DNA of 62,233 nucleotides from an uncultured Lachnospiraceae bacterium (lineage in GTDB: Bacteria > Bacillota > Clostridia > Lachnospirales > Lachnospiraceae): NCBI GenBank assembly GCA_902775555.1, contig CACYMQ010000020.1, positions 1 to 62,233 on the forward strand, given 5' to 3'. Below are positions 32,960-37,024 of this stretch, one piece after another. The position numbers were made by a program, and so were the translations under genes. How positions within the stretch are numbered: the first letter of the stretch is position 1; each line of letters opens with the position of its first letter. Below the pieces are notes generated by a model, which searched no databases, had not been told where the DNA came from, and saw only the letters and a list, made by a program, of their open reading frames with translations.

Positions 32960-33454
32960 CTAGTACAGGCGATGCTCCATCTGATTGTAAATCTCGAACA
33001 ATTCCAGACACGCCTCACGATCGATGCATGTCAGAAGATCCCCCATATCCTTCCTTCCGCCTGCAAGCCGGTCAAAGGCTTCGTCCCGGAAACCGATCCT
33101 TGCATTATCCTGAATGGTGCAGCCATAATACACCTTCCCAATATTTGCCCAAAGTATGGCATAGAGACACATCGGACACGGTTCGCCGGTGGTATAGAGA
33201 ACACAGCCCGAAAGGTCATAGGTCCCCAGTCGTTTCTCTGCGTCCCGTATGGCCGTGATCTCTCCGTGCGCGGTGGAATCGATATTTGCCAGCACCATAT
33301 TGTGCCCGCGCCCCACGATTTCTCCATCCTTTACGATCACACATCCGAAGGGTCCGCCGTCTTCTCTCCCGATCCCCTCCAGCGCTTCTTTGATTGCCTC
33401 CGTCATAAACGGATCCTCTGCCCTGATCTCCATTTCCTTCTTTTCCTTCTCCAT
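32960..33454 (-). CDS. Nucleoside/guanine deaminase (CDA superfamily)
   Basis: 164 residues. The zinc motifs HGEITAIRDA and EPCPMCLYAILWANI identify the cytidine/deoxycytidylate deaminase fold; the overall pattern (FGCVIVKDGEIVGRGHN, MEHRLY at the end) is closest to guanine deaminases of the GuaD type, which turn guanine into xanthine for purine salvage. TadA is an alternative but its RNA-binding residues are not evident. Start at 33454 chosen because GGAGGAGG precedes it; a frame to 33478 would bury the RBS. Confidence 0.85.
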   Translation of the reverse strand: MEKEKKEMEIRAEDPFMTEAIKEALEGIGREDGGPFGCVIVKDGEIVGRGHNMVLANIDSTAHGEITAIRDAEKRLGTYDLSGCVLYTTGEPCPMCLYAILWANIGKVYYGCTIQDNARIGFRDEAFDRLAGGRKDMGDLLTCIDREACLELFEIYNQMEHRLY

Positions 33455-33567
33455 CCTTATCCTCCTCCGAAACGGCATTTCATTCCCTCATGATCCACTA
33501 TACCAATTCCGGTTCATGTCCGCAAGCAAAGACAAAGGTCCCTGTTCCATCATATACCGGAGGTAGC

Positions 33568-33596
33568 GTGACATCTCACCCGAAACGTGATATTCT
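33568..33596 (+). promoter_or_regulatory. Promoter of the TerD-like gene
   Basis: GTGACA (33568-33573), 17 bases, TATTCT (33591-33596) with the extended element TGA. A transcript would begin near 33603, only a few bases before the first of the two tandem hairpins. Confidence 0.65.
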
Positions 33597-33609
33597 GTAT
33601 ATACTATGG

Positions 33610-33709
33610 CAGCTAGTGCCGCTTACTTCATCTTACTCTGGATCAGCGGCACCATACCGCCACACCCAGCTAGCCGGGCTTACTTCATTTTTCCTTGGAT
33701 CAGTCCGGC
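33610..33709 (+). promoter_or_regulatory. Tandem hairpin leader with covarying stems
   Basis: Two units, each starting CAGCTAG. Unit 1: stem GTGCCGCT (33616-33623) with AGCGGCAC (33645-33652). Unit 2: stem GCCGGGCT (33673-33680) with AGTCCGGC (33702-33709). Both stems are 8 bp and enclose a 21-base loop. The loops match at 17 of 21 positions, including TACTTCAT at the start and TGGATC at the end, while the stems differ at several positions and stay paired (one G-U). The units sit between promoter and RBS of the TerD-like gene. This pattern is expected of RNA (or single-strand DNA) structure under selection. Confidence 0.75.
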
Positions 33710-33737
33710 AATATTCAGGGTGATAAGGAGGAACCGC

Positions 33738-35777
33738 ATGAAACAGCTGTACAAACATCATCTCTTTCAAAGGCATCTCTTCGTATCGGATGCGGACAGT
33801 TCCCGGACAGATCAGTTTGAGACCATGTATACCCTCGCCAACCTGTTCTCTATTCAGATCACGGAGGGGGCTGATCTGCTCTCGCCGGAAATGATCCGGC
33901 TTGCATCCGGGGAACTGGGTGAAAATGTCCCGGTGCCCTTCTATCCGGGCTTTCCCGCCAGTGTAAGGGAGCTGACTTCCGACCAGCTGTTCTTCGACCA
34001 GCTGCTTCACTATGCCTCAACCTACGGTCTCGGAGACTTCTCCTCCGGGAAAAAGTCGATCTTTGATCCCGGGGTGAAACGCCCCGAATCCCAGGAACCC
34101 GGTTCTCTCCGGAAGTTCACCGTCATTCCCGAGGCTAACGCCGTGAAGCGTCTTCACTCCATCGTCTCCAACCTGCTGGCCGGAACCCGTCCGCTCTCCG
34201 AGGAACAGTTTGAACTGACAGTGAATTTTCTGAGGGATTACAATATAACCATGAAGCGTATCGCCTCCAAGGATACCGCTGTCCGCCTCACACTGGCCCT
34301 CCGTACTACGGAGTATGTATCCTTCCTCTCCATGCCGGATGTGATCCGTATGGTAGACTGGCTGAACTGCTCCGAATACGAAAACCGGAATATGAAGAAG
34401 CTGAACCTTCGGAATCAGGACCGGAAGTTCATCATTTCCGTAATGGATGAACTGTTCCGTCTCGGAAAGATGGAGCTTCGCTCCTGCTTCGAGAAGAAGA
34501 AGCTGTGGAACGGTCTGCTTCATCATATCCACTATCACGCAAAAACTCCGGAAGCCCAGGCCTTCGTCGACGCCATGCGGGGGAAGGACAACCGGTCCGT
34601 ATACTCCGACTTTGAAGCCCGGATGGCCCGGGGACATATCCGGGAAGCCGCAGATATCCTTCTTAAGGAAAAAGGCTCCGGTGCCCTGCTCCGAAACCTG
34701 GATTACCTGGTCAGCCGCTGCAGGTCCGACGAGGATATGGAGTATATCCTGAATCTGACGGACAGCAAAAATGTGATTCTTCTCTGCCAGCTTCTGATCC
34801 GGTACAGCCTGGAACCGGGGCATCCACGAACCTTCCGGTTCGTAAAGCATAACCGGCTATGGGTCCATCCGGAGAGTAAATGGGAGCAGGAGCATCGTCG
34901 ATCCGCCCTTTCCGCGGAACAGACATCCATACTCCGTGAAAAAGTCCTCTCGAATCTGAAGGCCGTCCTCGCCAACCGGCTGGGTAAGGTCTATATCGAC
35001 CCGGACATGGTACGTTATGCCCTCCCCCTGCAGGAAAGCGCTTCTCAGGGAGGCTTCGGTGTACTGACCCGCGGCACAAGGCTTCCCATCCCCGAGGGCA
35101 ACACCATCCGTGGCTTTACCTATTGGGAGAAGGTGGATGATATCGACCTCTCCGCCTTCGGTATCACAGAGGATGGACGGCAGATCGAATTCTCATGGAG
35201 GACCATGGCCTCCAAACAGTCAAAGGCCATCACCTACTCCGGAGATGTGACCAATGGATATGACGGCGGTTCCGAGTATTTTGACGTGAATCTGAAGGTG
35301 TTCAGAGAACAGTTTCCGGAGGTACGTTACATCATCTTCTGTGATAATGTATTTACCCGCCTTCCCTTCAGCCGTTGTATCTGCAGGGCCGGCTACATGC
35401 TCCGCCGGAAGCCGGATTCGGGAGAGATCTTTGAGCCGAAGACCGTGGAATCCGCTTTCCGGATCGACTGCGACAGCACCTTTGCCTATCTCTTCGGCAT
35501 CGACCTTACAAAACGGGAGTTCATTTGGCTGAACATGGCCAGAAACGGAAGCGAGACCGTCGCCGGTGAAACCGGGCTTTACTTCCTGACGGACTACTTC
35601 CGGACGACAGAGGCCATCAATCTCCATACATTCTTTGAAATGATGGCGGCAGAGATAACCGACTGCCCGGAGGATGCAGAGGTGATCGTAACCGACAAGC
35701 CGCTGATGACGAAAAAAGGCCAGACTCTGATCCGGGAATATGATTTCGACCGCATCATTGCGTTGATGAATCAGTGA
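33738..35777 (+). CDS. Protein with C-terminal TerD-like domain
   Basis: 679 residues from the ATG with AAGGAGG six bases upstream. Residues 1-430 are a mostly helical region I do not recognise. Around 440-610 the pattern changes to TRGTRLPIPEGNTIRGFTYWEK, DIDLSAFGI, ITYSGDVTNGYDGGSEYFDVNL and VRYIIFCDNVFTRLPF, matching the TerD/stress-protein fold, whose acidic loops bind calcium. TerD proteins respond to tellurite, oxidants, phage and other stress. The long N-terminal part plus TerD-like end recalls the MXAN_6230/SCO0854 type of large bacterial proteins, but that is a weak match by eye. Preceded by the tandem-hairpin leader; followed by a terminator. Confidence 0.8.
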   Translation: MKQLYKHHLFQRHLFVSDADSSRTDQFETMYTLANLFSIQITEGADLLSPEMIRLASGELGENVPVPFYPGFPASVRELTSDQLFFDQLLHYASTYGLGDFSSGKKSIFDPGVKRPESQEPGSLRKFTVIPEANAVKRLHSIVSNLLAGTRPLSEEQFELTVNFLRDYNITMKRIASKDTAVRLTLALRTTEYVSFLSMPDVIRMVDWLNCSEYENRNMKKLNLRNQDRKFIISVMDELFRLGKMELRSCFEKKKLWNGLLHHIHYHAKTPEAQAFVDAMRGKDNRSVYSDFEARMARGHIREAADILLKEKGSGALLRNLDYLVSRCRSDEDMEYILNLTDSKNVILLCQLLIRYSLEPGHPRTFRFVKHNRLWVHPESKWEQEHRRSALSAEQTSILREKVLSNLKAVLANRLGKVYIDPDMVRYALPLQESASQGGFGVLTRGTRLPIPEGNTIRGFTYWEKVDDIDLSAFGITEDGRQIEFSWRTMASKQSKAITYSGDVTNGYDGGSEYFDVNLKVFREQFPEVRYIIFCDNVFTRLPFSRCICRAGYMLRRKPDSGEIFEPKTVESAFRIDCDSTFAYLFGIDLTKREFIWLNMARNGSETVAGETGLYFLTDYFRTTEAINLHTFFEMMAAEITDCPEDAEVIVTDKPLMTKKGQTLIREYDFDRIIALMNQ

Positions 35778-35845: not shown

Positions 35846-37024
35846 TCAATGATGGAACAGTCTGATCCCCGTAAAGCACATAACGATACCGTACTTATTG
35901 CAGGTCTCGATCACATTGTCATCCCGGATGGAACCACCCGGCTGAGCGATGTAACGGACACCGCTGCGGTTTGCGCGCTCCACGTTATCCCCAAATGGGA
36001 AGAATGCATCCGATCCCAGCGTCACATCCGTATTCTTTGCCAGCCATGCCTTCCTCTCCTCGCGGGTGAAGACTGCGGGCTGCTCGGTGAAATACTTCTG
36101 CCATTCGCCGTCACCGATCACATCTTCGTAATCATCACTGATATACACATCGATGGTATTATCCCTGTCTGCCCGGCGGATATCTGCCTTGAAGGGGAGA
36201 GACAGAACCTGCGGAGACTGGCGCAGGAACCATTTGTCGGCCTTATCTCCTGCAAGACGGGTACAGTGGATCCTGGACTGCTGTCCGGCACCGATACCGA
36301 TAGCCGCACCGCCCTTTACATAGCAGACGGAATTGGACTGCGTATATTTCAGTGTGATCATGGCAATGGCCAGATCGATCTTCGCGGACTCCGGAAGCTC
36401 CTTCGCCTCTGTAACGATATTGCTGAAAAGTGCGTCATCGATCTTCAGTTCATTCCGTCCCTGTTCAAATGTAACACCATAGACATCCTTTGTCTCAATG
36501 GGTGCCGGAACATAGTCCGGATCGATCCCGATCACACAGTAGTTTCCGTTCTTCTTCTGGCGGAGCAGTTCCAGCGCTTCCTCTGTATAACCGGGAGCAA
36601 CCACACCGTCGCTGACCTCGCGCTTGATCAGACGTGCGGTATCCTTATCGCAGACATCGGAAAGCGCGATGAAGTCTCCGAAGGAGGACATACGGTCCGC
36701 ACCGCGGGCTCTTGCATATGCGGATGCCAGCGGGGATAACTCTCCCAGATCCTCAACCCAGTAGATCTTCTTCTCCATATCCGTCAGCGGAAGTCCTACA
36801 GCTGCTCCTGCCGGTGATACATGCTTGAAGCTGGTCGCCGCCGGAAGACCGGTTGCCTTCTTCAGTTCCTTTACCAGCTGCCAGCCGTTCAGGGCATCCA
36901 GCAGATTGATATATCCCGGCTTTCCGTTCACTACCGTGATGGGAAGCTCGGATCCGTCCTTCATAAATACACGGGACGGCTTCTGGTTCGGGTTACAGCC
37001 GTATTTCAGTTCCATTTCGTTCAT
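35846..37024 (-). CDS. AICAR transformylase, stand-alone
   Basis: 392 residues. It begins [17 protein letters not shown] and contains [35 protein letters not shown] and [23 protein letters not shown], the core of the formyltransferase half of PurH. It adds the formyl group to AICAR in the ninth step of purine synthesis. The N-terminal IMP cyclohydrolase (MGS-like) domain of bifunctional PurH is absent, and the gene directly upstream encodes a separate cyclohydrolase. The two form a purine operon. Confidence 0.93.

Follow-up and report, generated by a model that had tools for sequence, protein, structure and literature searches.

What are the two tandem RNA hairpins that precede the gene of a 679-amino-acid (679-aa) protein in an uncultured Lachnospiraceae bacterium, and with what do they work? 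The window, that is, the whole stretch of DNA analysed here (62,233 nt; forward strand of contig CACYMQ010000020.1, assembly GCA_902775555.1), had been given a sequence-only reading in which these hairpins could form a ligand- or protein-responsive leader before a TerD-like gene. We propose, at a probability of roughly 77%, that they are Y-RNA-like RNAs of minimal form that serve as RNA partner to the downstream Ro60-like TerD protein, in a particle of the kind outlined below. Ro60, an autoantigen in lupus, and Y RNAs occur in organisms ranging from bacteria to humans. Direct support comes from a two-helix architecture with covariation, from tRNA-like (YrlA) forms of the RNA among relatives, from the link with the gene, from copies at other sites in genomes whose gene has none, and from arrays in phage contigs; from these observations we infer that the units are expressed and very probably bind the neighbouring Ro60-like protein. 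The features of the locus are as follows (P1, outer helix of a unit).

33568..33596 (+): sigma-70-like promoter GTGACA-17-TATTCT, from a consensus scan (0.4 expected by chance)
33607..33662 (+): candidate Y-like unit 1, with P1 33607-33610/33659-33662, AGCTA 33611-33615 and 3' internal loop CATACC 33653-33658
33663..33722 (+): candidate Y-like unit 2, with P1 33663-33667/33718-33722, AGCTA 33668-33672 and 3' internal loop AATATTCA 33710-33717
33725..33731 (+): Shine-Dalgarno AAGGAGG, seen in the sequence, 2 nt after the end of unit 2 (33722)
33738..35777 (+): gene of the 679-aa protein
Predicted parts of this protein (AlphaFold, VIA-align, homologues): N-terminal part, residues 1-120; Ro60/TROVE-like helical part, about 121-447; TerD, about 450-617; C-terminal tail

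Two-helix units and their covariation

Both hairpins have 8-bp stems (33616-33623/33645-33652 and 33673-33680/33702-33709) and 21-nt loops (33624-33644 and 33681-33701) that are identical at 17 of 21 positions, as had been described. Paired stem positions differ between the units yet pairing is kept, with one G-U in unit 2, and the RNA folding z-scores against shuffled sequence are -2.26 for unit 1, -3.52 for unit 2 and -2.31 for the whole leader. What the first description had missed is that each hairpin is the upper part of a larger unit, enclosed by the second short helix P1 (TGGC/GCCA in unit 1, CACCC/GGGTG in unit 2); between inner and outer helix lie AGCTA on the 5' side and CATACC (unit 1) or AATATTCA (unit 2) on the 3' side, and both the outer helix and this AGCTA/(R)ATAT internal loop are conserved in relatives. 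From the promoter-like pair, transcription is expected to begin near 33603, at the outer helix, and in relatives a -10-like hexamer often stands 12-14 nt before AGCTA. The loop pattern does not recur in the window (0 expected by chance), nor, with up to three mismatches allowed, in the 3.0-Mb genome; a scan found no intrinsic terminator between unit 2 and the gene start. The window has no Rfam match at the gathering threshold, in agreement with the earlier view that no Rfam class fits.

A search of 99 genomes gave homologues of the 679-aa protein in 34, counting the window's own, and homologues were also found at 64 loci of named genomes; most hosts are Lachnospiraceae or other Clostridia, many of them sampled from the rumen, and some are Coriobacteriia. 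After duplicate removal 82 loci remained, window included, and 71 of them carry at least one candidate unit upstream of the gene, with copy numbers of 1-4. Of the 11 loci without an upstream unit, seven have at most 31 nt of upstream DNA, and four (L028, L030, L050 and L051) show none by pattern or model in at least 600 nt. A more stringent rule recognised 130 unit heads at 70 loci and gave 109 units with a full 6-bp partner and 3' loop, versus 23 (18-30) in a control using the 5' strand of another unit; the 21 heads missed by this finder, several of them good units with a deviating P2 or 3' loop, were excluded from the pair counts. The consensus unit consists of P1 (~6 bp), 5'-AGCUA facing RAUAUC-3', the inner helix P2 (7 bp), UUACUUC and a variable tip.

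Covariation was scored in an alignment of 57 short units, two of them from the window (5 of 62 listed short units were left out). All 13 pairs are changed on both sides (252 such cells versus 83 in shuffles), and the covariation score is 0.898 versus 0.319 for shuffled alignments, a signal that is destroyed by sliding the partner by 1 to 3 columns. Pairing of P2 is 100% in the 57 units by selection, while P1 and the top pair of P2 stood outside that selection: the five inner pairs of P1 are present in 419 of 540 cells, against a mean of 272 and a maximum of 304 in shuffles, and U-A or C-G makes the top pair of P2 in 107 of 108. A covariance model built from 35 units of loci L047-L090 only, thus excluding the window and loci L001-L046, recovers both window units (unit 2 at 47.9 bits, E 4.2e-9 over the window; unit 1 at 39.4 bits, E 9.5e-8 over the 13.7 kb searched). 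The compensating stem changes that had been noticed within one genome are true covariation across relatives and mark a selected RNA structure. Since homologous units and significant covariation were both found, none of the outcomes that the sequence-only reading had named against itself (no such units before related genes, no such covariation, evidence of translation of the region) came about.

YrlA-like modules and a protein of predicted Ro60-like fold

At 22 loci (24 of the 109 units) a T-arm and a D-arm, recognised by pattern and permuted in order, are contained in the 5'-most unit; six of these loci were given to ARAGORN, which reports no tRNA gene there. Seven permuted-arm relatives match Rfam YrlA (RF02553, bacterial Y RNA) at 41-51 bits (best 51.5; E 7.9e-6 to 7.9e-9), and the window's own locus, scanned beside them, gives no match. 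These scores are below the Rfam gathering score of 69 bits and above those of matches beside TROVE genes of the same phylum. Seven further units carry a T-arm hairpin only, and the remaining ones, both window units included, have plain tips; the tRNA-like module (T, acceptor and D arms, permuted) is in neither window unit, and none was found elsewhere in that genome. An automatic 'T-arm' label for short units at L070, L072, L074 and L076 was wrong and was discarded. The units also share with YrlA a stem that the two RNA ends form from two helices around an asymmetric internal loop (5/8 nt in YrlA, 5/6-8 nt here) and a P2 of 7 bp (the YrlA consensus P1 has 6 bp); the gene beside them may likewise be of Ro60 type, by fold only. 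The units differ from YrlA in their conserved internal-loop and UUACUUC sequences, which are absent from the YrlA consensus, in their tandem arrays of mixed modules, in the lack of a tRNA module in the window units and in scores under gathering.

For comparison, a TROVE match over the Pfam cut-off was found in 10 of 398 genomes of the phylum, two of these loci (L158 and L167) being short or interrupted frames (the TROVE frame of L167 is interrupted). A profile made from seven TROVE-locus proteins finds TROVE, Rsr and Ro60 chains of known structure (E 1.4e-29 to 3.5e-50), and seven of the ten loci (L160, L161, L163, L164, L165, L166 and L167) have YrlA matches of 31-40 bits. As all of these fall under 69 bits, RF02553 seems to miss Y RNAs of Bacillota. 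Units of the window's kind are present at 0 of the 10 TROVE loci, which indicates that the AGCUA/UUACUUC stem goes with the TerD-type protein.

The protein itself is predicted to join a Ro60-like helical domain to TerD. In the AlphaFold model, the best structural matches of the helical domain in VIA-align are Ro60 chains over nearly the full domain length, and the C-terminal domain matches TerD, with the beta-sandwich fold present, and not vWA; the predicted fold thus bears out the TerD-like gene named at the outset. The gene beside the units is Ro60-like by fold only. The Pfam TROVE profile finds no match in the 679-aa protein and the profile-profile signal is weak, and TROVE was found in none of 61 genomes. 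Pfam and PADLOC give no match for the window protein, a PDB sequence search with the protein profile gives none, and PHROGs returns one family of unknown function. Foldseek has no match at E 0.001 or better for the full and domain models; its lists are led by unrelated helical or immune proteins, and the one for the full model has a TROVE chain in 15th place. NF041916 (MXAN_6230/SCO0854, RING-domain proteins) matches partially, over residues 283-607 (E 1.8e-26), with a score of 92.6 versus a cut-off of 600. This score sets the protein apart from that family, as does the finding that neither units nor YrlA were detected beside distant Bacillota homologues.

Linkage to the gene and action in cis or in trans

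The unit model matches 20 of 24 genomes with the protein versus 1 of 37 without it. The model itself drew on units of ten of these 24, for which the linkage is by construction; among the other 14, 10 have a unit (p 8e-7 versus 1/37, ignoring shared ancestry). Four protein-bearing genomes (G017, G018, G022 and G023) show no unit at 85 candidates per genome; at 150, G022 has one of E 0.0036 and the other three still have none. In the sole protein-less genome with a unit (G034, 80% complete), a terminator-like hairpin follows it, and the 300 nt that remain before the contig ends lack a gene of the protein. Over 398 genomes of the phylum the model found units in the window's own genome only, a weak test of spread as just 13 candidates per genome were scored. 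Nine viral contigs with the protein (L147-L155; seven distinct sequences) all have unit matches upstream, 1-6 each and up to six in a row (weakest E 0.011), under a model built without viral contigs; one of them, L147, has a YrlA match of 39.6 bits and sits in a large tRNA gene array.

Where the gene has no unit despite enough upstream DNA, units lie elsewhere in 4 of 4 genomes (G032, G010, G099 and G497), which makes it probable that the RNA is trans-acting and works with the protein. In G010 (contig C46) a single unit stands 13-14 nt behind a 318-aa gene, an arrangement common to contig C30 of G035, as if it were processed from the 3' end of that gene (L117 and L112). Contig C9 of G099 carries a YrlA-like unit and two plain units, the last ending in CCGG and then seven T, and the unit on contig C143 of G497 is at the contig end, pointing off it. 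In G032 the unit (contig C10) is 24 nt before a phosphatase-like gene, so that cis control of other genes is possible.

The foremost alternative is a purely cis-acting autoregulatory leader, in which the protein binds hairpins of its own mRNA and represses translation or promotes termination, with no separate particle. The position of the units directly upstream of the gene would fit this: at 25 of 67 loci, the window among them, the last unit stops no more than 30 nt before the start codon and has no T-run after it, and at 16 of 67 a T-run does follow, so that the outer helix could act as a terminator. Such a leader would not explain units at other sites in genomes that have none before the gene, tRNA-mimic and T-arm modules would be superfluous for a simple operator, and the two-helix ends resemble YrlA, so that we consider it unlikely.

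Less probable still, and by a clear step, is a riboswitch class that senses a metabolite or ion and controls TerD-type stress genes, despite the conserved unpaired AGCUA/RAUAUC/UUACUUC core, the tandem arrangement and, in a minority of loci, the T-runs after P1. The apical part is freely swapped for tRNA-like modules, copies lie elsewhere in all four unit-less cases, and the units are seen beside one protein family or alone (partly by construction, the loci having been collected via the protein). A Y-RNA-type tRNA mimic in relatives, an outer-helix end that at times resembles an intrinsic terminator and the Ro60-like neighbour also speak against it, and Rfam gives no riboswitch match, neither for the window at gathering nor for eight loci at E up to 1. 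'Structured leader' was right in kind, and a protein-responsive one remains likely for the window copy, while a ligand riboswitch is not supported. A repetitive extragenic palindromic (REP)-like repeat, or codons of an extended N-terminus in the 44-codon open frame that runs through both units from an ATG at 33606 into the gene, is hardly credible given only two copies in the genome, closure of the frame no more than 15 nt before the gene start in 14 of the 24 relatives counted (in line with the earlier view that the region is no conserved coding sequence) and the base-pair covariation that contradicts both.

A putative TerD-tailed Ro60/Y-RNA particle

Under the proposed partnership of Y-like RNA and Ro60-like TerD protein, the P1/AGCUA-RAUAUC/P2 stem would be bound by the protein's helical ring and the variable tip would act as the effector, being a tRNA mimic or T-arm in relatives and a bare hairpin in the window. 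Where present, such a mimic may recruit a tRNA-handling enzyme, and bare tips may only gate or stabilise the ring. This proposal is drawn by analogy with Rsr-Y RNA, for which passages of PMC8394870 describe a stem that holds the ring and a tRNA-like tip that engages PNPase. By the same analogy with Ro60-Y RNA, the particle may serve RNA surveillance, decay or repair, and the TerD part could perhaps sense a stress-linked ligand or ion. The window copy appears minimal, lacking the tRNA mimic and abutting the ribosome-binding site, and autoregulation is also likely: as unit 2 ends 2 nt before the Shine-Dalgarno sequence, bound protein should block translation and so give negative autoregulation. 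If the leader were cleaved, the hairpins could be set free as Y-like ribonucleoprotein particles.

More broadly, we lean towards a separate lineage of Ro60/Y-RNA particles in gut bacteria and phages, missed by sequence profiles, that would combine a ring in which TerD replaces vWA with its own modular Y RNAs (tRNA mimics, T-arm mimics and bare hairpins in arrays) and may take part in RNA repair or phage-host conflict. As with Ro60/Rsr (TROVE, PF05731), there is a helical domain, here predicted, and a gene beside Y-type RNAs and sometimes near rtcB, with a distant homologue near rtcR; unlike Ro60/Rsr, there is no TROVE profile match, TerD stands where Ro60 has vWA, and an N-terminal part is added. 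The functional model resembles that of RYPER (Rsr-Y RNA-PNPase of Deinococcus radiodurans), with a stem that holds the ring and a tip that recruits a partner, as parts of PMC8394870 and PMC7790460 set out; the partner is the nuclease PNPase in RYPER, and in the present particle it would be a putative tRNA-handling enzyme. According to sections of PMC7790460, functional work on bacterial Rsr and Y RNA has centred on Deinococcus radiodurans. If the proposal is correct, a second, TerD-tailed branch with RNAs of ~60 nt exists in many gut-derived genomes and phage contigs, the tellurite/stress Ter domain is linked to RNA surveillance, small natural variants separate the stem (protein binding) from the tip (tRNA mimic, T-arm or nothing), and Rfam and Pfam thresholds hide part of the Ro60/Y-RNA system.

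The open-licence literature searched yielded no description of TerD joined with TROVE, Ro60 or Y RNA, and likewise none of such a system under MXAN_6230/SCO0854, RtcR with TerD, or YrlA with Lachnospiraceae; a prior mention elsewhere of TerD with Ro60-like domains is possible. Portions of PMC7824862 and PMC7159879 mention TROVE or RNA repair and TerD, separately. We regard the system as a variant of the Ro60/Y-RNA kind and do not claim its first description.

With respect to RNA repair, excerpts of PMC7790460 report that some bacteria encode the RNA ligase RtcB together with Ro60 and Y RNA. An rtcB gene lies within 10 kb of the protein gene in 4 of 24 genomes (5 of 32 RtcB genes; 0.22 expected), and RtcB has no match in the window's own genome. 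A distant homologue on a Variovorax plasmid, a RING finger family 4 protein (L156:3245-5473), is three small genes from rtcR, the RNA-repair activator, and no Y-like RNA was found at that locus. A second YrlA-like RNA without a unit-model match lies between rtcB and another gene in genomes without a TROVE match (38 bits at L127:2754-2814, contig C13 of G028; 44 bits at L128:2765-2838, minus strand, contig C2 of G007).

The gene that shares these intervals with rtcB is presumably a slipin. On contig C37 of G012 (L130:2316-2418), away from the protein gene, an isolated unit-like element is directly preceded by a TATAAT box. In the window, the neighbours of the 679-aa protein gene are a divergent cytidine-deaminase-like gene (32960-33478) and a convergent AICARFT/IMPCHase-like gene (35846-37024).
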